DNA from: Lachnospiraceae bacterium
GTDB taxonomy: Bacteria > Bacillota > Clostridia > Lachnospirales > Lachnospiraceae
Direction of reading: 5' to 3'
Assembly: GCA_022510525.1 (NCBI GenBank)
Contig: JAFLTH010000015.1
Span: forward strand, 1 to 45,382
Length of the DNA: 45,382 nucleotides
The translations under genes and the position numbers were made by a program. The stretch's first letter is position 1. Every line of letters starts with the position of its first letter. The notes below the pieces were generated by a model. It saw only the letters and a program-made list of their open reading frames with translations, did no database searches and was not told the origin of the DNA. Shown one piece after another: positions 23,745 through 36,139 of this stretch.

Positions 23745-26700
23745 TTAGTTGAAAAGGTCATTAACAAAGCTCATTATATTACTGGTGACAGAGTCCCATG
23801 TACTCTCGCTCTTAGTAATATTCATCTGCTTAGCTACAATCTTGAACTTGACATTCTTAGTACCACTGTACTTGCCAATACCTTTGATTACTGCTGTTGC
23901 AGTTCCCTTATTGATATTGTTAGAGTATTCTGCGATTACATAATCTGTACCCATTGTAAGATTACCGGACACACCCTTCATCGTTACTGTAAGATCACCA
24001 TTCTCAAGCTTGATTTCAGAACCTGTATACGTCTTAGCTGCCTTATTGAGCTTAGGATCCTTTTTAACAACGAATTTTGCCTTGGCTATGTTCTCACCAA
24101 CAGTAAACTCTGCAGCAGGTGTAGCACTATCTTTTTTAAGGTTCTTTATATCCTTAGCTTTTGCTACTACATAAATCTTGTTTTCGTCTCCGGACTTAAG
24201 TACATCTTTGTCACCGTACTTCCCTGCACAATCGGCGTCTTTATAAACTTCAACTGTGTATTGTGAAGCTTTAAGTATATTGCCATTCGCATCAAGTACC
24301 GTAGCCTTTACCTTGCCTGCGGTCATTCCTGAGTATGCAGTTACAGCCGCAACCTCCAGGTCGTTCATATCAAGATTCTTAATCTCAAATGTTGTCTGTT
24401 TCGTCGGTTTCTTAGCATAGTTGCCTTTACCTGTAATCGTAATATTAGCTGATTTAGTAACAGTTTTATTAGCTGAATACTTAACTGTATAATCTGTACC
24501 CTCTATAAGTTCTGCACCGTTAACCGTAACCTCTACTTTAGGTGTTGCGCCCTTAACTGAATAGTATATGGCTTCTTCATCAAGCACCTTCACATCTATA
24601 TCACTGGCTTTAACCTTGCTCAAATCTATGGCATTGATTTTGAAGGTCTTCTTAACTGTAGTTGCTTTTTTATTGGTACCTACTTTACCTGTTAAAAGAA
24701 GGGTTGCGGTTCCTTTATTACGGTTATTTGACAAAGCCCAGTTTGCAGGAAGAATCTCGGTTGTGATTGCTCCACTTTCTACTTTATAATAATTACCATT
24801 ATCATATCTGTATGTTACAGCCGATTTTCCACTCAATGTAAGCTTAAAGTCAGGATACTGCTCTTCTCCATTAAAGTCCATCGGCTCAATCTTATCAATC
24901 TTAGCTCCCTTAAGGTCTGCCAGGTCACCAGTATAAGTTTCCGCACTCACAATCTCGAAGGTTTCGTCTACATCCTTGCCTGTATAGTTACCCTTACCTG
25001 TTACTGTAACTTTGGCTTTTCCGGCTTTATTGTCTTTTGTGAGCTTAACATTATTTGAATACTTAACAGTGTAATCAATGCCGGGTGATAAGAGTTTACC
25101 TTCTTCTCCAATATTGTAATCTACAACACCGATATTTGGCGTAATCTTAGCGCCGGTGTAAATGTATTCTTTCTCAAGACCTACGATGACAAGACCGCTT
25201 TCCGGATCTGGATCGCCTTCGTCACCGCCTCCGCCGCCAGAACCTCCCGGCTTATAGTTAGGATCTACGTCATAAAGTGCAGTAAATGTTATAACGCCGC
25301 CAACGGCATCCTCACCTTTAACAATATATGTATTATCCTCAAGCTCCAGCGGTGTTGTGCCACCGTCTACAGACCAGCCCGTGAATATATATCCTCCAAA
25401 TGGAGTACAATCGGGCAGTTTCACTTCTGCTCCTTCCGGCTTAGGTGCGGTATCAAGATTCTTAGCTGTTCCGGTTCCTATTTTGTATACAATAGTGTAT
25501 ACAGGCTGTGAGAACTTAATGCTTGTGTAAGCTACACCCTTGGTTCCACCAGCATATAAATAATATGTACCTGCTTCATTAATATCGAATTCCTTTGTAG
25601 TTTTTGAAGTGCTTGTTATATCCAATATTTTAATAGGAGCAGCTAATGAAGTACCTGAAGATGACATTTGTGCAAGGTTAAGATTGCATGTATATGTTAT
25701 ACCTTTCTCTTCATCTATAAGTTTTCCTGATGCTTGAACTTCTACATATAGAGTACCCGGACCATCGGTTGTAAATTCTATGGATTTTAAGAGTCCTTTT
25801 TCATTACCCTGAATACTCTTATCAGCGTCACTATTTAAGAGCACGCCATTTGTATACAACATATTATCTTTAACGGTCATATAGTATTTAGGACTATCCT
25901 GATTTGAGCCGCCACCGCCTGGAGCCGCATGAATCGTAAATCCTCTAACCTCTTTATTTGAGGTAATATCACCATTTACAAGATCCGTTGCACAAATCAA
26001 AGTAAGGTCAGGATCATCTAATTCCGTTTTACTCCAATGTGCATATACGGTAACATCGCTAGTAGGATTTTCAATTGCATCTATCGGATTACCGTCCTTA
26101 TCAAACCAGCCTGCAAAAATATAACCAGGTTTTGTAGTTGTCTGCGTTATATAGTACGTTTGGCCTTTGGTCATCTTGACTGTTGCAACTGTTGAGCCGC
26201 CATCTGTTTCAAAAAGCAAATTATAAGTAACTTCCGGAACACCGCCGCTGCTGCTATCATCTTCCCAATTTGCATAAAGTGTTGCATTTGCATTAACTGT
26301 ATATGGGAAAGTAACTTTTGTATCACATGATGCATCTTTATATAAACCTTCAAGTGTATAACCCGTCCTTGTAAATGATGCAGCAGATACTAATTCTTCT
26401 AATGTTGCATATGTTGTATTTTCAAGAACCGATAATGCTTTCGGTTCAGATGGTGCATCCTCATCATTGTAGTCCAATGTAAGCGTATAATAAACTTCAT
26501 CTGATTCTTTATTATCTACGGATACATAAAATAGATTTATAGTATCCCCTTTTGTTATCGTATGCGTACCTGCTGATAAATTATCAACGGTAACAGTTGC
26601 ATAAGCATCTGTTGTCTTTGCTATACCATCAACCTTAACCGTTTTACCTGTTTCAGTTGATGCAAATGCCATACGCAAAACTGCTCCATCATTACATCTG

Positions 26701-29699
26701 AAAGATACGCTTGTACTTGTCTCCATCTTAAGGCATTCGGTATATGTTTCTTCATTGACTGTGGCTGAACCCTTTGAATTTGAATAATTTCCCGACACGG
26801 TAAAGAAATTATCCGCATCATTTTCTCTCATACCTTCAAAAGTCAGTATATAATTTCCTGCTAAAGTGCTGCCGCCTCCAGAACCACTGTCACCAGTTCC
26901 GCCACCGCTTCCGGAACCGCTCGAAACCTTTTTATATGATTCTTCTACCGTAGTATTACATCTTGAGCATGTATGCTTTCTTAAACCTTCCGCTTCATCA
27001 GTGGCTGCCGTAATTATTTCCCAGCTTCCCCAAGAATGACCAAGAGCTGCCACAGGTTCTCTCTTTTCTGGCTCATTGCACTTATCAACATTTACTGTAG
27101 ATACACAGTCATATACATTGTAACCAGCCGCTGTACAAGTTGCTGCTACCGCCTTCGTCTTTTCTACATTCAACACATATTGATGATAATGTGCATTTTC
27201 ATCAACCGGCTCAATGAGCAGCTTAGTAATTGGAATTTCCTTAAATGTAGCTATTGTACCCTTTGCAGGATCTCCCGGCTGGACATCCTCCATAGACTGT
27301 ATAATATATGTGCCTGCAAGCAATACGCGGCTCCCCTCGTTTCCGGCTTTAATTTCAAGCAGACTCTCACCCTCTTCATTTACGAGCACTGCACCACCAT
27401 TCTTACTTGTACTGGAAACTCCAATTGTTACATTAAACGATCCGCCTACATTAAAAGCATAGCCGTTTTTACCAATTTTCTTTTGGCTATCTTTTAAACC
27501 GGCAAAGAGATCATTACCTGGACTAGGTACAACAGTCTTAGGATTTGAATCATATTTTTTTACCACAGAATAATCACTCGTAGTAATTTCTGAGTCTAAT
27601 CTGGGATTTTTCTCCTGTACACCTGTCTGGGATACAATAACTTTTCTTAACTTAGCAAAATCTGTCTGAAGCTGATAATCATTATCGGGAATATAAGAAA
27701 GAGAGGACTTTGTATCAAACTCACTATAATCAATATTTCCTGCCGTATACTTACAGTTATTTGGCACCTTCTCTGATTTGTCTGTAACAACAGTTCCCGG
27801 AACGCCCTCCTTCCACAGTGCGCTTGCAAAAGTATCGTTATAACTCTTGATCGCACCGCCTTCTACAGCCTGCGGACTCTTGCATGCATAGAACATATTA
27901 TATTCAGAGAATATATAGGCATCTGCCCTTGTGTTCATAGCATAGTCTCTCTGCATCTCAAATATGTTATTGTACATATGTACATTCGCATTACGTGTAA
28001 GCGGTCCTCTTGCCCTACACATATACCAGTAATTGTGGTGATATGTCAGGTTATACTGAAGACTGTAGTCGGCTGAACCTACCAGATTAGTCTTATGGCA
28101 ATCTTCAAAGTAGTTATAACTACATGTAAAATACTGACCTCTCTTAAAGTCCACGGAACCGTCACCTTCAGATTTATCTGATTCTGCTGGCTTGTCAATA
28201 TGTGGGCAGTAAAATTCGTTGTTATGAACCCAGCAGCGTTCAACACTTGAAGTAATTCTGTCAGTTACCTTTTTACCTTCCTGCTGTCCTTCCATACCTA
28301 CAGCATCCTCGGGAGTATTGATAAAGGTAAGGTTACGAACTTCAAAACTCTTTCCCAAATCAGTATCTGATCCCTGCGCTATATAATGGAAGCCCCAGCC
28401 ATCGATTGTGGCATCATATCCGATACCTTCAAGCGTTACATATTTACCGGACTGAATACGAGCCATATGCCCGTTATCACCCTCTGAACCACCATTATCC
28501 AGTGAGTTATATACTGTCAGACCGGTAATCTTACATGGAGAATTTGCACTAAATGTACCCTTTTCATAAAGACCTGAGTCTGATACAGTACCGATAAACC
28601 TTACTACAAGCGGTTTGCCTGCTCTAGCAAGCTCTTTAATTATTCCTTTATTGCTGTTTGCTTTTCCTCTTTTGCCTTTAGAATTAGGTTTTGTCTGACC
28701 GGGAGCCGCAGGGTCTTCCTGTCCAACGGAATTCAGAATATTACCAATACCTGTTACGGTAATACCATTAACTGTAAGTTTTACATCATTTTTATTTGCA
28801 TCTGTAACATAAAGAATTTCGGCTTTGTCCTTTATGGTACCGTCATCCTTATATGCACCTACACCTTCAGTATAGTTAAAATGTGCATAGCCTGAACGGT
28901 CGTATGCATAGACTTCAAGATTTGATTTCTTAATAGTACTGGAACCAACTTCAATAGTCAATTCATATGTACCTGCTTTGATTCCGGGGATGTCAATACG
29001 GACAACTCCGTCCACCTTCCTTACAAGATAATCAAGATCTTTTGTCGGATCGTTTCTGGTATATCCACCTGAATAACCGGTATTGCCTGACCATCTTACT
29101 GCAGCAACATCACTGGGCTCAACGTTCCCTGTTATTTCCGCATAGAGGCTTTCATTCCAGCCTCCGGCAGTAACCGCGGAGTCAGCAACCGTAATGTTTG
29201 ATCTCACATAACCGTTATCCTCAAGGAGTTCAACATCTTCAAGCGGATCCTCAGCCTCGATTTCCTCACCGGTCTCTTCGCCCTCTGCATTCTCATCGGA
29301 GCCTTCAGCGTCGGCATCGTTCTCATCCGAGCCATCTTCTCCCAAACCGGGTTCATCTGTTTCTTCGTCTCCCGGTGTGGTTTCACCGGAGTTTTCTTCT
29401 CCTGAACCGGGCTCATTTGTTTCTCCATCTCCGGGGAGGGTATCTTCATCTCCTGGAAGTGTCTCTTCGCCTCCGGGTGTGGTCTCACCGGAGCCTTCTT
29501 CTGAACCTGTTTCATTTTCAGTACCGATTCCGTCCGGCACTTCATTATCAGAAGCAGAATCTTCTGATCCGGCTGTCTCTGCTTCGATTGCGGGTTCAGC
29601 GGCATACACCGTCGTACTCGGCAATACAGTCGTAAGTATCATAGCCATACTTAAGAGCGCAGCCATTAACTTGTTGCTTAATCTTTTTGCCTTTTTCAT
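23745..29699 (-). CDS. large secreted PL1 pectate lyase with repeat domains
   Basis: The 1984-residue paralog of the adjacent protein has a near-identical signal peptide (cut after A33). A Glu/Gly/Pro/Thr-rich linker with repeated TLPGDE- and TTPGDE-type units spans about 40-150. The PL1 beta-helix (about 160-740) carries DGSVDFKRGQ and the catalytic RGPLTR (R564, R569). A Cys-containing segment follows (about 837-925, HTCSRCNTTVEES). After a Ser/Gly linker comes a beta-rich module (about 947-1065) resembling a carbohydrate-binding domain. InlB-type repeats (about 1070-1480) and Ig-like modules (about 1507-1955) complete it, and it ends in an amphipathic tail, IMSFVNDLFN. It should be exported and degrade pectin. 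Promoter 29932-29959 and a leader of about 225 bases with a long hairpin precede it. The binding-module call is tentative. Confidence 0.92.
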   Translation of the reverse strand: MKKAKRLSNKLMAALLSMAMILTTVLPSTTVYAAEPAIEAETAGSEDSASDNEVPDGIGTENETGSEEGSGETTPGGEETLPGDEDTLPGDGETNEPGSGEENSGETTPGDEETDEPGLGEDGSDENDADAEGSDENAEGEETGEEIEAEDPLEDVELLEDNGYVRSNITVADSAVTAGGWNESLYAEITGNVEPSDVAAVRWSGNTGYSGGYTRNDPTKDLDYLVRKVDGVVRIDIPGIKAGTYELTIEVGSSTIKKSNLEVYAYDRSGYAHFNYTEGVGAYKDDGTIKDKAEILYVTDANKNDVKLTVNGITVTGIGNILNSVGQEDPAAPGQTKPNSKGKRGKANSNKGIIKELARAGKPLVVRFIGTVSDSGLYEKGTFSANSPCKITGLTVYNSLDNGGSEGDNGHMARIQSGKYVTLEGIGYDATIDGWGFHYIAQGSDTDLGKSFEVRNLTFINTPEDAVGMEGQQEGKKVTDRITSSVERCWVHNNEFYCPHIDKPAESDKSEGDGSVDFKRGQYFTCSYNYFEDCHKTNLVGSADYSLQYNLTYHHNYWYMCRARGPLTRNANVHMYNNIFEMQRDYAMNTRADAYIFSEYNMFYACKSPQAVEGGAIKSYNDTFASALWKEGVPGTVVTDKSEKVPNNCKYTAGNIDYSEFDTKSSLSYIPDNDYQLQTDFAKLRKVIVSQTGVQEKNPRLDSEITTSDYSVVKKYDSNPKTVVPSPGNDLFAGLKDSQKKIGKNGYAFNVGGSFNVTIGVSSTSKNGGAVLVNEEGESLLEIKAGNEGSRVLLAGTYIIQSMEDVQPGDPAKGTIATFKEIPITKLLIEPVDENAHYHQYVLNVEKTKAVAATCTAAGYNVYDCVSTVNVDKCNEPEKREPVAALGHSWGSWEIITAATDEAEGLRKHTCSRCNTTVEESYKKVSSGSGSGGGTGDSGSGGGSTLAGNYILTFEGMRENDADNFFTVSGNYSNSKGSATVNEETYTECLKMETSTSVSFRCNDGAVLRMAFASTETGKTVKVDGIAKTTDAYATVTVDNLSAGTHTITKGDTINLFYVSVDNKESDEVYYTLTLDYNDEDAPSEPKALSVLENTTYATLEELVSAASFTRTGYTLEGLYKDASCDTKVTFPYTVNANATLYANWEDDSSSGGVPEVTYNLLFETDGGSTVATVKMTKGQTYYITQTTTKPGYIFAGWFDKDGNPIDAIENPTSDVTVYAHWSKTELDDPDLTLICATDLVNGDITSNKEVRGFTIHAAPGGGGSNQDSPKYYMTVKDNMLYTNGVLLNSDADKSIQGNEKGLLKSIEFTTDGPGTLYVEVQASGKLIDEEKGITYTCNLNLAQMSSSGTSLAAPIKILDITSTSKTTKEFDINEAGTYYLYAGGTKGVAYTSIKFSQPVYTIVYKIGTGTAKNLDTAPKPEGAEVKLPDCTPFGGYIFTGWSVDGGTTPLELEDNTYIVKGEDAVGGVITFTALYDVDPNYKPGGSGGGGGDEGDPDPESGLVIVGLEKEYIYTGAKITPNIGVVDYNIGEEGKLLSPGIDYTVKYSNNVKLTKDNKAGKAKVTVTGKGNYTGKDVDETFEIVSAETYTGDLADLKGAKIDKIEPMDFNGEEQYPDFKLTLSGKSAVTYRYDNGNYYKVESGAITTEILPANWALSNNRNKGTATLLLTGKVGTNKKATTVKKTFKINAIDLSKVKASDIDVKVLDEEAIYYSVKGATPKVEVTVNGAELIEGTDYTVKYSANKTVTKSANITITGKGNYAKKPTKQTTFEIKNLDMNDLEVAAVTAYSGMTAGKVKATVLDANGNILKASQYTVEVYKDADCAGKYGDKDVLKSGDENKIYVVAKAKDIKNLKKDSATPAAEFTVGENIAKAKFVVKKDPKLNKAAKTYTGSEIKLENGDLTVTMKGVSGNLTMGTDYVIAEYSNNINKGTATAVIKGIGKYSGTKNVKFKIVAKQMNITKSESTWDSVTSNIMSFVNDLFN

Positions 29700-29977: not shown

Positions 29978-30012
29978 AATTACCCAAATTTTGAGTGAAA
30001 ATTTGGGCAATT
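29978..30012. terminator. terminator after the HNH endonuclease gene
   Basis: AATTACCCAAATTTT (29978-29992) pairs with AAAATTTGGGCAATT (29998-30012) at 14 of 15 positions, with a 5-base loop. It begins 7 bases after the stop of the HNH gene and closes the four-gene cassette. Confidence 0.8.
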
Positions 30013-30018
30013 TTACTA

Positions 30019-30942
30019 TTAATATTTTACACATCCCTCTTCCAAACAAACAGGGTCAACATCCTCTTCGCCTATAATATACAAATCCAATTTCCCCGTT
30101 TTAATGTAGTAATATAAAAAACCAAAATTTCCAATCATAGTTTCCCATTTTTCTATTTGTTCCTTTTTTAAACGCATATTCCTAACAGTTTTCTCTGCCG
30201 TATCATTTAAAACAATTTCACACAAATATTCTTTGTCATTATATTGAATTTTAATATCTAGGTCATCCTCTGCAAAGAGTAATTCATATGAAATTTCCAA
30301 CTCATCCAGGATTGCGAGAACCTCCTGAAAAGCTTGTCCCGCCTTTGAACGTCCACACTTGAATGATGGGGTCTGATAACTATCTGCTTGAACCAAAAAA
30401 TTATTACTGACCAATGTATTCAATTTATGTAATAATTCTCCCGGAATATCTGAACAATCCGAAATCAGATTTAATAATTTCTTTAGTTCCTCATCATTTT
30501 TATCCGATTGCTCCTGCGCTTTCCTCATTTCTCTGTAATATTTTGAATTTAATTTCAGACTATCTATGAACTGTTTCCCTTCCGGTGTCTGTTCGGCAAG
30601 CTGATAATCTTCACTCTCCCCAAGACGTATAACATGAGGATTTACTCCTGAGTAAATATCGTCTTTACATGGATTTAACAACATCTCGGTATTCATATTT
30701 GATTTGGTACTATTACACTTTTCACATGCATAAATCATATTGTCATATGCGTCAAGATCAATATCTTCTCCGGAGGATATTGCAACAAAATGGTCCTTTT
30801 GAAAATTATCCTCTTGTACAACACCTGTGTCTTTCTCCCGTAATCGGCAATATGCACATTCAAAGTTAAAATCGTTGCGCAGATACATCTTACATTTCAT
30901 ATGATTATATCGTACCCAACGCCTTTTTCTGATGTAATCCAT
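30019..30942 (-). CDS. HNH endonuclease-domain protein
   Basis: The 307-residue protein begins with a basic helix (IRKRRWVRY) and then an HNH nuclease fold. This has zinc cysteines C29/C32 (CAYC) and C73/C76 (CEKC), the metal/catalytic D50-H51 (KDHF), N68 and K80 in CNSTKSN. Residues about 95-180 are helical and charged, and about 200-300 form a separate beta-rich domain with no family I recognise. It is the last gene of the methyltransferase - ATPase/kinase - receiver - HNH cassette, starting 3 bases after the receiver gene stop. The most likely role is the DNA-cutting effector of a restriction or anti-phage system. The HNH call is firm; target and control are inferred from context. Confidence 0.85.
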   Translation of the reverse strand: MDYIRKRRWVRYNHMKCKMYLRNDFNFECAYCRLREKDTGVVQEDNFQKDHFVAISSGEDIDLDAYDNMIYACEKCNSTKSNMNTEMLLNPCKDDIYSGVNPHVIRLGESEDYQLAEQTPEGKQFIDSLKLNSKYYREMRKAQEQSDKNDEELKKLLNLISDCSDIPGELLHKLNTLVSNNFLVQADSYQTPSFKCGRSKAGQAFQEVLAILDELEISYELLFAEDDLDIKIQYNDKEYLCEIVLNDTAEKTVRNMRLKKEQIEKWETMIGNFGFLYYYIKTGKLDLYIIGEEDVDPVCLEEGCVKY

Positions 30943-30945
30943 CTT

Positions 30946-31449
30946 TTATCCTTTCTTATCATCAACAGTAAAACTCTTTAACTCATTTATTAATTCTTCT
31001 TTTTCCCTGTTTCTTTTCTCCATTTCCGCCAATAATTTATTGTCATATCTCAGTTCACACGCTCTCTTAATCTTTTGTACAACTTCGGCAATCTTGCCTT
31101 CCTCCGCCATTTCCTTTTTTGTCAATTGATAATCATATGCTCCCAATTCTTCTTTGTAATCTTCCAAAGTATAATTGGTTAAAAGAATTGCATATATTGT
31201 ACTGTCATTTTTACGTATTTCATTTAATGCGTCGCTGCCTTTGTAGGATACCGTCTGCTTATCTAATTCATGATCGATTATCAGAAAATCTATATGCTCT
31301 TTTACAATGATTGAATAGAAGTCTTCAATATTTTCCGGTAATTTTTCCAGCCCCATTATATTGATACCTTCAAACAAATCGAATCTGGCCTGTTGCACCA
31401 TAACATTATTCATATCATCTTCAATATATAATCCCAGCAATTCTTTCAC
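30946..31449 (-). CDS. stand-alone receiver-domain protein
   Basis: The 167-residue protein has a divergent response-regulator receiver fold with an acidic pair (D11-D12 in YIEDD), predicted phosphoacceptor D59 in FLIIDHELD, T91 in ILLTN and K111 in QLTKKE. After residue about 125 there is only a charged, probably coiled tail (KLLAEMEKRNREKEELINEL), so there is no DNA-binding output domain. Its GTG start overlaps the stop of the upstream ATPase/kinase gene by one base (TAGTG), and the HNH gene follows 3 bases after its stop. That layout suggests equal, coupled production and a direct partnership with the kinase. It may relay a signal to the HNH protein. The receiver assignment is good; the partner assignment is inference. 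Confidence 0.82.
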   Translation of the reverse strand: MKELLGLYIEDDMNNVMVQQARFDLFEGINIMGLEKLPENIEDFYSIIVKEHIDFLIIDHELDKQTVSYKGSDALNEIRKNDSTIYAILLTNYTLEDYKEELGAYDYQLTKKEMAEEGKIAEVVQKIKRACELRYDNKLLAEMEKRNREKEELINELKSFTVDDKKG

Positions 31450-33875
31450 TATTTTTTCTCCTTTTTCTTCAGATGAATCAGGAATCTGGCACCTCCAAGT
31501 CTTTCAGAATCCGATACACTTATTGTCCCTCCATAGCTTGATACAATATCCTTTACAATATTAAGTCCAAGACCAATTCCATCTTCCTTGGTCGTGACAA
31601 AAGCCTGAAATATTTCCTCACGCTTATTTACAGGAACTCCTCTTCCACTGTCTTCAAACTCCAAAATAATATTTTCTTCATCCTGACTAAACAGAATACT
31701 TATAAACCTATGAGATCTTCCCTTTAGTTGTTCAAAAGCATTTGTTATCATATTAATTATGATAGACTCCAAGTCAATCTGCCGCATAGTATAATATATA
31801 TTATTCTGTGAATTCCATGATAAGTTAATACCAAATTCCTGCAGCATACTAAAATACAGACGGCAGATATTATCCAAAACCATGCCAAAATCCAGATTAT
31901 CCCTAACACTTCTTTTATGTTTACGAAGGAATTCCACAATCATGGAACTATATCCTTCTATCCTGGCAAAATCAGATTTTAAAATGTTAGTTATATTTCC
32001 AAAATGACTATTTCCTATTGTTGGTATCAGAGCCTCAAAATATGCAATGCTATTACTGATTCTTGAAATAATATCCTGGGTCTCATGTCCGAAATTACCG
32101 GTTAGAATTCCCAAGGTTGCAAGATTTTTGTACATAGACAGTTCGTTTTCCTGAAATTCTAACACTTTCTGATATGCAGATTCTGTCTGTTCATACTGTT
32201 CTTCTTTTTCTTTTTGAAACAGTTCCTCGTATCGTTTATACCGTTCAAATGCACTAAATACAACAGTTGCGGAAGCTCCGCTTCTCATTAACTCCATCGT
32301 ATCTTGAAAACGTTTATCCTGATCACGTTTATGCTTTTCTGATTTCTGCTGCTGCTTCTTCCTGTTTTCTTTAGCCTTGTCTAACTCCGATTGAGAATTC
32401 CTGAATGCCTCTAATCTAACATTTGAAATAATTGAAATACACTTGAGTATAAATTCTTTTAATTGCTCATATGCCTGATTTTCAATGATTCCTTCTCGAT
32501 TTGTAGCATCAATCAACAGTGGATTTTTACTGTCAGAGATCTTAATTACTCCAATAGTCTGGTTATTTCCCACCCTATATGCATGAGTATCTTTTACCTT
32601 ACTGCTATCCAGTTCCAACCAGTCATTGCCAATGTCACCATAAGGTTTTACTCTAAAATTATCCCTGTATATTTTTATTCCACAATATGTATCCAAAATA
32701 CGCAATGCAAATCTGTAATCATATGTTTCATTCTTCATATGTGCGGCATCTCTTAGAAAATAATATAGTTCGAAGGAAATTTCCCCGCAAAGTAACGGTA
32801 TTTCATATTCACTATTAACTTCTTTATAATTTCCATCATTATCCTTATATCGAATTACAGATTGCTTTCCCTCATTTGTAATTTCAGCATCAAGTTTAGC
32901 ATGTCTCATATTAAAAATGTCATTTACAGACATTTCTTCAGGTATATCAAACTGATCTGCAATAAGTTCAATATGAAAAGGATCCTTCTCAATAAATTCC
33001 GGTGCAACAAGAAGCCGCAGCTCCTTCTGAAGCTTGTCAATATCTTTTTGACGCCAATCATCCCTCAGTCGATCCAAAACCAGCACCATTCCGGTTAGTT
33101 TATCATTTTCTCCTATACTTTTCTCTCTGTCTTTCAACTTCTCCAGCAGTTTATAATTTTCTTCCCCGTCTCTGCCTGCTATTTGCTCCAGAGGATTGCC
33201 AATTTCATCAATGCCATATTCTTCACCCTCGTACTTTTCCAATACAGGCAGCACAACCTTCTCTAACTCTGACAAGACACTTTTGCTAAATAGAATCGTA
33301 TAATCATCAACAATATCTGCATACTTTTCCACAATCCTTTTGTCCTGTACATCCGTATTTGATAATAGCAGATAATATTCCAATTGATTGGCAATAAACT
33401 TTGCAGCAGAGACATCTCTTCCCTCTCGCAGTATCCTGATTCTCTGCCTCAGTGCCTCCACTGAAATCTCTTCATACCGGTTCCAATTTATGTAAACCTT
33501 GAAATCCTCATGCTCAGTAAATGAATAGATCGTGACTCTTTCAGCCAGTCTTTCTACAGAGAAACGCCCAATTCCTTTTTTACCTGTACGTTTCCTTCCA
33601 TTAGGCGTATATGGCTCACTAACCTTATTACTGGTACCTATGACCATCCATTTTTTCTCAAATTCCTCCTGAGTCATACCAGTACCAGTATCTATAACGA
33701 CAATTCTGCTGTTTGGTGTATTAGCATTCTCAATCTTAATCTGTACACTTCCGGCATCTGCATCATAGGAATTTTTGACAAGCTCAACTAAGGCAGTAAC
33801 AAAATCCGTCACAAGTTCTCTGCCCAATTGTCCAATATGTCTTGAGTTTGTTCTAAAATAAAGATTTCTGGCCAT
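31449..33875 (-). CDS. double-GHKL ATPase / histidine kinase-like protein
   Basis: The 808-residue soluble protein carries two GHKL ATPase domains. The first (about 1-190) is of Hsp90/MORC/MutL type: E31 and N35 in ELVKNSYDAD, D62-G64-G66 in DTGTGM, and GKKGIGRFS at 98-106. A middle region (about 200-490) has no family I can name. A long coiled coil (about 490-590) leads to a HisKA-like helix with H597-E598 in LTGNFGHETQDI. A second histidine-kinase-type ATPase follows, with NMITNAFEQLKG, EDSGRGVP and GIGLGLNIVKDIV. No membrane segment or PAS domain is seen, so the signal must be cytoplasmic, perhaps DNA or a DNA-bound state. It begins 12 bases after the methyltransferase gene and overlaps the receiver gene by 1 base. 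Confidence 0.85.
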   Translation of the reverse strand: MARNLYFRTNSRHIGQLGRELVTDFVTALVELVKNSYDADAGSVQIKIENANTPNSRIVVIDTGTGMTQEEFEKKWMVIGTSNKVSEPYTPNGRKRTGKKGIGRFSVERLAERVTIYSFTEHEDFKVYINWNRYEEISVEALRQRIRILREGRDVSAAKFIANQLEYYLLLSNTDVQDKRIVEKYADIVDDYTILFSKSVLSELEKVVLPVLEKYEGEEYGIDEIGNPLEQIAGRDGEENYKLLEKLKDREKSIGENDKLTGMVLVLDRLRDDWRQKDIDKLQKELRLLVAPEFIEKDPFHIELIADQFDIPEEMSVNDIFNMRHAKLDAEITNEGKQSVIRYKDNDGNYKEVNSEYEIPLLCGEISFELYYFLRDAAHMKNETYDYRFALRILDTYCGIKIYRDNFRVKPYGDIGNDWLELDSSKVKDTHAYRVGNNQTIGVIKISDSKNPLLIDATNREGIIENQAYEQLKEFILKCISIISNVRLEAFRNSQSELDKAKENRKKQQQKSEKHKRDQDKRFQDTMELMRSGASATVVFSAFERYKRYEELFQKEKEEQYEQTESAYQKVLEFQENELSMYKNLATLGILTGNFGHETQDIISRISNSIAYFEALIPTIGNSHFGNITNILKSDFARIEGYSSMIVEFLRKHKRSVRDNLDFGMVLDNICRLYFSMLQEFGINLSWNSQNNIYYTMRQIDLESIIINMITNAFEQLKGRSHRFISILFSQDEENIILEFEDSGRGVPVNKREEIFQAFVTTKEDGIGLGLNIVKDIVSSYGGTISVSDSERLGGARFLIHLKKKEKK

Positions 33876-33887
33876 GCATACCTCTCA

Positions 33888-35318
33888 CTAAAACCTATAT
33901 TCGCTAATATCATGCACAGATACTCTGTATGAAGATAATGTCGTAGGAGTTCCAACATCTTTTACATATTGATAAAAGTGCGGACTCTCAAGCAATTTCT
34001 TAGCATCCTGCAAAGTCATATTGCAGTTATTATTCATTGTGATAAAATATCCTGCATAGGGAATCGAGTCTTGATCTGCAATACAGATTCCGGTTGTTTC
34101 TGTTATAACCATAGGTATGATAAGCTTCTCACCAAATATCTCTGTCAACGCCTGGCTACGTCCGTACTCAAACCACTTAGCTTTCTTATCCGCATTTCTT
34201 TTATCCAAATCTTCATCAAACTGATGCAAATACTCACAAGTACAAGGATATAATTTCTTAAATTCCGCTTCCATGTAATGAGCGATTTTTCCGTTTATCC
34301 TTTTATACGGGAAAATAATTCTTGTCTCACAATTCCCTTTTTTTAATGTTCGGATACTTTTGGTACTGACTGCCGGTAAGGTGACCTCTTTTTCTACAGG
34401 TATATCTTTAATGAAATAGTATTGCTCATCTTCCTTTTCAACAGAAAAAAGAAATGCCTTATTACATAATGTTGCCACACTATTGTGGACATGAAAGTAA
34501 TCTCCAAACCTTTTACTTCCGCCATTATTATTTTGAAAAATCCATTTTTCACCATTCTTGCTTAATGTCGAACGCTGTATATTATAACTTTTATGTGAAA
34601 AAACGTCTTCGTATCCAATACAGTTTGGAACATTTTGCTTTTCACATAAAATAAGAGAAGTTGAACATGTAATCCCCGGAAATACATTAATACTTCTGTA
34701 ATCAATAATCTTAGTAATATAATCTCTGATAAATCCTCTCACCCCATTGGCATATCTGTTTCGAAAAATACTAAATGGTATCAGATATATCATTTTGCCG
34801 TTATGTGCTAATGCTTTAAGACTTGCCTCTATAAAAGCATAGCAATAATCAAATCGTCCCTGCTTACAAACAACATATTTTTTCTGTAGAATATCTCTTT
34901 CTTTTTGTGTGAGATCATGATATGTAATATATGGCGGATTACCTATGATAAATTCTATATTATTCTCTTTACTTTTTAAGAAATCCTGATGCTTGATATT
35001 CCATGTGACTTCAGGTAGTCTTTCATCAGACACCAGATCGTTTAAACGTGTTAAACAAATGTCTATTTTTACCCGGTCTATTTCATATGCTATAATATCT
35101 TTCTCCAGTCCTTCTACAATTTCTTCTGGAGTATTGTTATTTTTTCTGGCGTCAATTATATATCTTTTGACAATTTCTATAAGTATATTACCCTCTCCGC
35201 AGGAATTTTCCAGTACTTTGTGTCCCCGTAAATTATATTTGTATCCCACATAGTCAAGCATCTGTTCTACATATTTAACAGGAGTAGGGATTTGACAATT
35301 TTTATCCTGCTTTGACAT
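33888..35318 (-). CDS. adenine-specific DNA methyltransferase
   Basis: The 476-residue protein has a class I SAM-dependent methyltransferase core with motif I at about 36-43 (LENSCGEG) and the catalytic NPPY at 127-130 (IIGNPPYITY), which is typical of N6-adenine methylation. The order motif I then NPPY, with a large C-terminal target-recognition region (about 250-476, including TTLSSYRVSVHDI), resembles Eco57I-type methyltransferases but without a fused nuclease. It is the first gene of the cassette, behind a strong promoter at 35375-35403, with AAAGG about 11 bases before the ATG. Context suggests it marks host DNA so that the downstream system spares it. The specificity cannot be read from the sequence. 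Confidence 0.88.
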   Translation of the reverse strand: MSKQDKNCQIPTPVKYVEQMLDYVGYKYNLRGHKVLENSCGEGNILIEIVKRYIIDARKNNNTPEEIVEGLEKDIIAYEIDRVKIDICLTRLNDLVSDERLPEVTWNIKHQDFLKSKENNIEFIIGNPPYITYHDLTQKERDILQKKYVVCKQGRFDYCYAFIEASLKALAHNGKMIYLIPFSIFRNRYANGVRGFIRDYITKIIDYRSINVFPGITCSTSLILCEKQNVPNCIGYEDVFSHKSYNIQRSTLSKNGEKWIFQNNNGGSKRFGDYFHVHNSVATLCNKAFLFSVEKEDEQYYFIKDIPVEKEVTLPAVSTKSIRTLKKGNCETRIIFPYKRINGKIAHYMEAEFKKLYPCTCEYLHQFDEDLDKRNADKKAKWFEYGRSQALTEIFGEKLIIPMVITETTGICIADQDSIPYAGYFITMNNNCNMTLQDAKKLLESPHFYQYVKDVGTPTTLSSYRVSVHDISEYRF

Positions 35319-35374: not shown

Positions 35375-35403
35375 ATTGTATCATAAGGCAAAAATATCGT
35401 CAA
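35375..35403 (-). promoter_or_regulatory. strong promoter of the methyltransferase-HNH cassette
   Basis: TTGACG (35403-35398), a 17-base spacer and TACAAT (35380-35375) with a TGA extension form a near-consensus sigma-A promoter. Its -35 begins 2 bases from the last codon of the deacetylase gene. It gives the cassette its own transcription start about 50 bases before the methyltransferase ATG. Confidence 0.75.
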
Positions 35404-35404
35404 T

Positions 35405-36139
35405 TCAGTCAAACAATATCTCATCCACCGTCACAAACTCATACCCTTCTTTCTTCAGTTTATCAATGATGTTCAACGCAGCCGTAACGGTAGATTCATA
35501 ATAGTCATGCATAAGTATTATATCGTTCTCATCAGCCTTGGATACCACCTTGTCGGTAATGCGGGATGCATTGCTTGAACTCCAGTCAAGCGGGTCCAGC
35601 GTCCAAAGTACCGGAAACATATTTAATTCAGTCTCAAACTTTTTATCCCAGGTGCCGTATGGCGGCCTGATATACAGTACTTCTTTACCCGTAATTTCGT
35701 TAATAATTTCGTTGGTTTTTACAATCTGATTCTTAAATTCATCTCTGTTTCTTGAGCTTAATTGAATATGGCTGTATGTGTGGTTTCCTATGAGATGTCC
35801 CTCTTCGTTCATCCTTTCAATGATGTCGGGATGCAGCTCGGCATGTTCTCCCGTAACGAAGAATGTTGCTTTTACATCCCGCTCCCTTAATCCGTCCAAA
35901 AGCTGTTCAGTATAGCAGGGGTGGGGTCCGTCATCAAAGGTAAGCGCAATTTTTTTCGGTTCCGCATTGTCTTCCTCTATTATAATCTTTTCGACTATGA
36001 TACTGTTACCGGTTTTGGTTGTCCTTGCAGCTATCCTGGCCTGCTGCTCCTTACCGTGGGTTCTGCCTAAAAAATAAAAAAGCAGACCCACAATAAATAT
36101 TACGGAAAAAATGAAAAGGCGTACTTTCTTATTGTTCAT
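35405..36139 (-). CDS. membrane-anchored polysaccharide deacetylase
   Basis: The 244-residue protein has an N-terminal membrane anchor (about residues 7-25) and an extracellular NodB-type deacetylase domain. All catalytic motifs are present: TFDDGP with D69-D70, HTYSH, RPPYG, DPLDW and LMHD. It should remove acetyl groups from a cell-wall polymer such as peptidoglycan or another N-acetylated glycan; the exact substrate cannot be told. It starts 51 bases after the VanS-like kinase gene with a GGAG signal 7 bases before its ATG, and is the last gene of the DUF975 - regulator - kinase - deacetylase operon. This suggests the two-component pair controls wall modification. Confidence 0.9.
   Translation of the reverse strand: MNNKKVRLFIFSVIFIVGLLFYFLGRTHGKEQQARIAARTTKTGNSIIVEKIIIEEDNAEPKKIALTFDDGPHPCYTEQLLDGLRERDVKATFFVTGEHAELHPDIIERMNEEGHLIGNHTYSHIQLSSRNRDEFKNQIVKTNEIINEITGKEVLYIRPPYGTWDKKFETELNMFPVLWTLDPLDWSSSNASRITDKVVSKADENDIILMHDYYESTVTAALNIIDKLKKEGYEFVTVDEILFD

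Follow-up and report, generated by a model that had tools for sequence, protein, structure and literature searches.

A recurrent methyltransferase, double-GHKL kinase, receiver and effector cassette of a Lachnospiraceae bacterium, a probable methylation-linked two-component defence module

The 45,382-nt contig JAFLTH010000015.1 of a Lachnospiraceae bacterium (the window, i.e., the whole stretch of DNA that was analysed) carries four adjacent genes at 30019..35318, all on the minus strand, which encode a DNA adenine methyltransferase (MTase), a kinase with two GHKL ATPase domains, a stand-alone receiver and a predicted HNH nuclease (Table 1). The grouping of these genes is a real, recurrent unit; judged from sequence, the cassette is probably an unnamed, effector-swapping, methylation-linked two-component defence module. 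The observations behind this reading are the gene set, its conserved residues, its recurrence, the exchange of its MTase and effector, and the defence-rich flanks of close relatives. A first-pass annotation of the window had described four minus-strand genes with gaps of 12, −1 and 3 bases (MTase/kinase/receiver/HNH) and had read them as an adenine MTase with an NPPY motif, a double-GHKL kinase, a receiver and an HNH nuclease; the open reading frames lie exactly there, and the domain matches agree with each identity. It missed that the MTase and the effector are exchangeable, which alters the likely mechanism.

Recurrence was assessed in loci gathered with an alignment of the near kinase family, which yielded 135 genome stretches, 95 of them encoding a relative. 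The best 80 of these 95 were used; plasmid loci L002, L003 and L005 and four viral-contig loci were added, and L051 and L055, whose contigs end within the kinase, were removed, leaving 85 loci (L004, the window copies L001 and L119, and generic-kinase loci were likewise excluded). A complete MTase-kinase-receiver-effector set is found in 80 of the 85, in Bacillota, Bacteroidota, Pseudomonadota, a Deinococcus plasmid and a spirochaete. Fifty-three loci, mostly of Bacteroidota, have a C5 MTase, kinase, receiver and CHAT-type effector (one, L103, with an additional N6-type MTase close by), and 27 have an Eco57I-type MTase, kinase, receiver and HNH protein; the receiver profile alone recovers the receiver in 79/85 loci, and in five of the 27 HNH-type loci the receiver was identified by its D, T and K residues instead. 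The five incomplete loci are L052 and L065 (contig edge), L100 (no MTase adjoining the kinase), L003 (a metallo-β-lactamase (MBL)-fold gene in the effector position) and L058 (a protein of 162 residues with no Pfam match in that position). Since the counted loci also supplied the C5-MTase and CHAT profiles, both positions were checked independently: the L072 MTase (Pfam DNA_methylase) is matched by all 53 upstream genes, each of which carries PCQ, and the modelled L060 protein by 54 of 55 effector genes. Beside these counts, the archaeal (Micrarchaeota) protein at L058:6490-6975 is possibly HEPN-like by eye, and in the excluded Klebsiella plasmid relative L004:4676-9545 the kinase is annotated as three pieces, probably broken, next to an HNH gene that matches the profile.

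A full-length kinase profile run phylum-wide was uninformative, as it retrieved ordinary histidine kinases (18 of 19 non-own places matched in the C-terminal part only, one in the N-terminal part only); an N-terminal kinase profile was therefore made for a survey that was blind to gene context (397 same-family genomes, E ≤ 1e-40). It found 22 places in 21 of the 397 genomes, and the 21 non-own places were examined. A receiver-like gene lies directly downstream of the kinase in all 21, with D9 and D58 invariant, of which Pfam recognises nine. An MTase lies within three genes of the kinase in 20 of the 21 (19 directly upstream and, at L216, three genes downstream), 12 being of Eco57I type, four C5 and four N6_N4; none was detected within three genes of the kinase at L199. 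An HNH gene follows the receiver at 13 of the 21 places (12 by profile, L216 by Pfam). Two of the survey genomes, G060 and G793, are same-genus siblings that hold a distant version at another genomic place. The first-pass annotation had tied its proposal to co-occurrence of the genes in other genomes, and this is what is seen: the set recurs in 80/85 loci, with a receiver in 21/21 and an MTase in 20/21 of the surveyed places.

Such recurrence bears on whether an ordinary regulatory two-component system merely adjoins an MTase and a nuclease by chance. Kinase and receiver domains typical of two-component systems would suit that explanation, but it is already disfavoured and barely plausible: the neighbourhood is shared by 80 of the 85 loci, which span several phyla, the receiver has no DNA-binding family above cut-off (a weak ORC1_wHTH match scores 15.2 bits vs. 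a cut-off of 24.3), and none of the four cassette proteins has a membrane-like segment (maximum 19-residue hydropathy 1.28).

The position after the receiver is occupied by different kinds of effector: a PtuB-like HNH protein with a resolvase-like tail in the window, a CHAT/caspase-fold protein in Bacteroidota, MBL-fold proteins, and extended receivers. In L060-L114 and L116, L098 excepted, the CHAT/caspase-fold gene lies two places after the kinase, with a C5 MTase, kinase and receiver as partners; a Vsr-like gene can come after a CHAT-type set (by eye, L103:13350-13772). The Bacteroidota effector is identified as a CHAT/caspase-fold protein from its fold model; a profile search against solved structures gave weak caspase-6 matches only (E 0.14 and above), tblastn against plasmids gave no match, and Pfam was uninformative (Peptidase_C25 in 2/55). 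The eight survey loci without an HNH gene after the receiver have longer receivers, of 309–460 residues. Four of them (L207, L209, L210, and L211) combine a C5 MTase and kinase with a C-terminally extended receiver bearing an HEPN-like R-x4-H motif (by eye), and no separate effector was recognised in these; an HEPN family match was found in one of the 21 survey receiver-like proteins (E 0.0019). L208, L212, L213, and L214 have an MTase that is N6_N4 by Pfam, a kinase and a receiver of 425–460 residues.

The MTase is exchanged separately. L043 shares with L046, L048, and L054 66–68% identity in the kinase, 66–71% in the receiver and 51–52% in the HNH protein, and only 18–19% in the MTase. Distance correlations are 0.93–0.96 among kinase, receiver and HNH protein and 0.82–0.91 between the MTase and those three; kinase, receiver and effector therefore travel together more closely than the MTase does with them, whereas the two halves of a classical matched MTase/restriction-enzyme pair would be expected to change jointly. 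This touches the simplest alternative known from restriction-modification (R-M) systems, a type II pair of MTase and HNH enzyme with matching specificity, in which the two-component pair only times or restrains the restriction enzyme. Gene 1 is a DNA MTase bearing the catalytic NPPY motif of such systems, it shares an operon with a nuclease, and kinases of the same layout are tied to R-M in the available part of Bellieny-Rabelo et al. (2021; PMC8011034). Replacement of the MTase (18–19% identity) while the HNH protein stays at 51–52%, and the presence in the nuclease position of a CHAT/caspase-fold protein in Bacteroidota or of MBL-fold genes elsewhere, make a type II pair unlikely. A CHAT/caspase-fold protein, as relatives have it in the nuclease position, can hardly restrict DNA at specific sites; for this reason the effector probably serves the signalling core as a toxic or abortive weapon and is not the partner in a classical R-M pair.

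The residues on which phosphotransfer would depend are conserved. In the near sets (the window and 20 related sets, n = 21), the kinase keeps N35, D62, H597, N708, and D742, the receiver keeps E10, D11, D59, T91, and K111, and the HNH protein keeps D50, H51, N68, and N77, each in 21/21; D59, H597, and H51, which the first-pass annotation had singled out for alteration, are thus correctly placed and invariant. Among 18 diverse kinases, E31, N35, D38, D62, G64, G66, G98, G101, and G103 of the N-terminal ATPase domain, H597, and N708, N712, D742, G744, G746, G766, G768, and G770 of the C-terminal domain are all invariant, and H597 aligns to the H-box His of the histidine kinase ZraS (solved structure 9jfj). 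The stretch after the HATPase_c_3 domain, where MORC/paraMORC ATPases have an S5-type domain, is conserved in sequence. Across 15 diverse receivers, D11 and T91 are present in 15/15, D59 in 14/15 (one gap) and K111 in 14/15. The receiver of the window belongs to NCBIfam NF052378 (LM5578_1851 family response regulator; 248.6 bits vs. a curated cut-off of 150), and its Pfam Response_reg match is weak (22.9 bits vs. 30.2).

This conservation is what stands against a reading without His-Asp phosphotransfer, namely a MORC-like machine that would remodel or restrict DNA at the expense of ATP, its two GHKL domains both serving as ATPases and its receiver as a phosphate-independent or nucleotide-responsive switch. 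The N-terminal part of the kinase (residues 15-126) does resemble the BbrUII/HgiDII GHKL restriction enzymes (NF050001), although at 73.3 bits it is far from the cut-off of 550, and kinase-free receivers are proposed in conflict systems in the available part of PMC8195603. Such a machine is distinctly unlikely: no near set departs from H597, from the N and G boxes of the kinase or from E10, D11, D59, T91, and K111 of the receiver, and all 21 surveyed kinases have a receiver-like gene next to them.

We give an even chance to the four genes forming one anti-invader (anti-phage) module in which the MTase marks host DNA and phosphate transfer from H597 to D59 switches on the HNH protein. In such a module, adenine methylation would distinguish self DNA; unmarked DNA or a blocked MTase would be sensed by the MORC-type ATPase part at the N-terminus, with or without help from the MTase; and the C-terminal kinase domain would then autophosphorylate the protein at H597. 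No DNA-binding output domain is recognised in the receiver; phosphate on its D59 would alter how it contacts the nuclease, and the freed HNH enzyme would cut DNA, perhaps guided by its resolvase-like tail. Slightly more guardedly, we suggest an unnamed immunity class that crosses phyla, in which an MTase, a cytosolic double-GHKL kinase and a receiver may make up a methylation-reading phosphorelay that arms interchangeable effectors: a PtuB-like HNH protein with a resolvase-fold tail, a CHAT/caspase-like protease, an MBL-fold enzyme, or a receiver-fused HEPN-like domain. If so, restriction-like marking of self and non-self would be wired through His-Asp phosphotransfer to each lineage's own weapon, even a caspase-fold protein. 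This would bring together R-M, two-component signalling and abortive immunity, on which work mostly proceeds separately, and would offer a role for the kinase-receiver pairing reported in 2021 beside R-M genes as a prediction (PMC8011034).

The genomic surroundings of close relatives point the same way. Up to seven nearest genes per near locus (120 proteins from 20 loci) were compared with PADLOC models at E ≤ 1e-20, and these flanks are rich in defence genes: the 120 proteins match 103 models (one protein can match several), and among the matches listed (the best 25 of 103) are AbiEi/AbiEii, type I and III MTases and Wadjet JetA/JetB. As a control, 101 proteins were taken from 11 same-genus loci that lack the cassette and are not species-matched; they match one model (mad3). 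The mad3 model is itself uninformative as a defence signal, with 4/120 flank proteins vs. 7/101 controls. Resolvase (site-specific recombinase) is found in 7/120 case-flank proteins, a figure without a control counterpart. A related MTase-kinase-receiver-HNH set on a viral contig (L115:1015-14756) has a phage integrase on one side and, on the other, a CI-type repressor, a CII-like gene and a replication nickase in that order, which indicates a P2-like prophage. At the DNA level this set has no match in E. coli genomes, and tblastn of the kinase against a phage collection gave 23 records, none covering 80% of the query at one place.

The cassette is patchy at a fixed site. Its MTase follows a polysaccharide deacetylase in the window, L035, L036, L037, L051, and L057; this deacetylase (window 35405-36139) is present in 30 of 31 same-genus genomes, the own genome included, and no MTase was found within ~1.5 kb beside it in 14/14 sibling loci, which makes this a variable site. 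The 11 longer sibling stretches hold no cassette gene at E ≤ 1e-15. Patchiness within the genus, together with occurrence on several plasmids and in a viral contig, would also be expected of a selfish stabilisation (addiction) module carried by mobile DNA and lethal to cells that lose the MTase, any anti-phage effect being secondary; with the flanks of near relatives rich in defence genes, and with MTase and effector turning over separately, this explanation is highly improbable. Seven plasmid records (L165-L171) were considered outside the 85-locus count. L166 has an MTase, kinase, receiver and MBL gene; L168 an MTase, kinase and receiver-like gene; and L171 a kinase, a receiver-like gene, one gene of unknown kind and then an N-6 MTase. 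L165 has a C5 MTase and kinase only; L167 a kinase, receiver-like gene, MBL pieces and transposase with no MTase listed; L169 a kinase next to a response regulator, the N-6 MTase lying on the opposite strand; and L170 a kinase and receiver-like gene with no MTase (the receiver-like genes of L167, L168, L170, and L171 were recognised by eye).

Several points besides the unmatched flank control weigh against a defence module driven by phosphotransfer. Of 11 plasmid records, L167, L169, and L170 are without a same-strand MTase beside the kinase, and L165 is without an annotated receiver; related Bacteroidota loci are non-independent observations. The exact receiver subtype is sparse, NF052378 being above cut-off in one of 299 family genomes, the own genome, and the receiver may be a phosphorylation-independent switch. 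MTases unlike in sequence may recognise the same site. The resolvase-like domain of the HNH protein lacks the catalytic Lys position and its fold match is middling, and five HNH models range from pLDDT 82.9, that of gene 4 itself, to 58.5. The window neighbours inspected (the polysaccharide deacetylase, a sensor kinase and a secreted-looking protein) are not defence genes, and the window's own flanks were not scanned for defence families.

No named system in PADLOC (2023) fits the four genes, in line with the first-pass annotation, which had recognised none. The MTase matches mostly generic MTase models (among the matches listed, the best 25 of 35), the kinase two restriction-enzyme models and TmtA only, all over its N-terminal part, the receiver none, and the HNH protein PtuB, with weak overlap with PtuA models in the HNH region. 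The HNH Pfam match (PF01844) scores 30.2 bits vs. a cut-off of 21.4. Gene 4 is thus like Septu and retron PtuB by family and fold similarity; the difference is that the HNH protein is paired here with a kinase and receiver and has a resolvase-like tail, and PtuA ATPase has no match in genes 2 and 3, nor in gene 1 among the matches listed (the best 25 of 35). The Bacteroidota effector resembles SAVED-CHAT and other immune CHAT proteases in its fold and His/Cys pair but has no SAVED fusion and adjoins a receiver.

Detocs is an anti-phage system of histidine kinase, response regulator and effector, and the cassette resembles it in having a kinase, a receiver and an effector that is probably toxic. 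To our knowledge, Detocs has neither an MTase nor a MORC-type N-terminal domain. Gene 4 is an HNH protein and not a nucleoside phosphorylase, the Detocs effector described in the available part of PMC10952713. PADLOC gave no receiver match and no kinase match named Detocs, the presence of Detocs models in the 2023 library being unconfirmed.

Association of GHKL kinases and receivers with R-M is already known. HEF_HK/Response_reg_2 two-component-like pairs in R-M neighbourhoods are described in the available part of Bellieny-Rabelo et al. (2021), with a soluble kinase of HATPase_c_3, His-bearing helix region and HATPase_c, a receiver gene at most three genes away, and neighbourhoods rich in MTase, Vsr and HNH genes (HNH_2 and Vsr neighbours are reported). 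The window shows this layout of HATPase_c_3, H-box and HATPase_c with a nearby receiver gene and an MTase neighbour. That part of the paper emphasises C5 MTases, in contrast to the Eco57I type here, and a word search of the paper's main text gave no hit for phage, caspase, peptidase, lactamase, or Eco57I. The families themselves were not recovered: PF19191 (HEF_HK) and PF19192 (Response_reg_2) match neither the kinase nor the receiver, respectively, at E ≤ 1, and nothing in the cassette at E ≤ 10 (own genome, with the PF19191 model in the library), and two Bacteroidota kinases and two receivers match neither family. PF19192 has no match in 398 phylum genomes, where control genomes are equally silent, so that absence is not shown. 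With the MORC/paraMORC GHKL ATPases that Iyer et al. (2008; PMC2292703) described in R-M operons, the cassette has in common the N-terminal GHKL domain and the MTase and HNH neighbours; it adds a C-terminal kinase domain and a receiver, and "receiver" and "two-component" are absent from the text of that paper. One figure of the DefensePredictor paper (PMC13092281), on predicted systems, has HATPase and REC in its list of abbreviations and may overlap with the cassette. In open-licence PubMed Central, the Eco57I-type four-gene unit, its effector swapping and the defence reading were not found in print. The earlier claim of a new defence system is therefore kept in part: defence is backed by a recurrent unit, kept catalytic residues, defence-rich flanks, one prophage set and the lack of a PADLOC system, and the exact set is unnamed there, but novelty needs qualifying, as same-layout kinase-receiver pairs near R-M were published in 2021 (PMC8011034, available part).

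Table 1. Features of the cassette and its borders (window positions).
Feature	Position	Strand	Evidence
Gene 1, Eco57I-type DNA adenine MTase, 476 aa	33888..35318	-	Pfam Eco57I 3.1e-19, N6_Mtase 3.7e-8
MTase NPPY motif, residues 127-130	34940-34929	-	NPP[YFW]-type motif in 21/21 sets
Gene 2, double-GHKL kinase, 808 aa	31449..33875	-	HATPase_c_3 and HATPase_c; no membrane-like segment
N-terminal GHKL ATPase domain HATPase_c_3, residues 25-135	33471..33803	-	PF13589 5.6e-24
H597, predicted phosphate-accepting His (H-box)	32085..32087	-	Aligned with ZraS H-box His
C-terminal histidine-kinase ATPase domain, residues 699-805	31461..31781	-	PF02518 1.5e-27
Gene 3, stand-alone receiver, 167 aa, GTG start	30946..31449	-	NF052378 248.6 bits, cut-off 150
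D59, predicted receiver phosphoacceptor	31273..31275	-	Invariant in 21/21 near sets
Gene 4, predicted HNH nuclease, 307 aa	30019..30942	-	PF01844 5e-7; PADLOC PtuB 4.3e-11
H51 of HNH site	30790..30792	-	With D50, N68, N77, four Cys; 20/20 in HNH alignment
HNH C-terminal domain, residues 200-302	30037..30345	-	Holliday-junction-resolvase/SPARDA-nuclease-like fold
Promoter-like site TTGACG-17-TACAAT, 5′ of gene 1	35375..35403	-	10/12 consensus matches
Hairpin 3′ of gene 4, possible terminator	29983..30007		10-pair stem

Candidate expression signals border the cassette at both ends, with less force than the first-pass annotation had given them. It had spoken of one strong promoter; a promoter-like site is present, but its strength is not borne out, since the window holds 28 such sites vs. 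25.9 ± 5.3 in shuffles, i.e., chance level. The hairpin it had called a terminator exists, but is A+T-rich (3/10 pairs G-C) and of ordinary strength (fold z −2.82; 2/200 shuffles equally good), and terminator-like hairpins in the window number 3 vs. 2.2 ± 1.5 expected, again chance level. Beyond the hairpin, a 1984-residue secreted-looking protein with repeats (window 23745-29699) adjoins the cassette.

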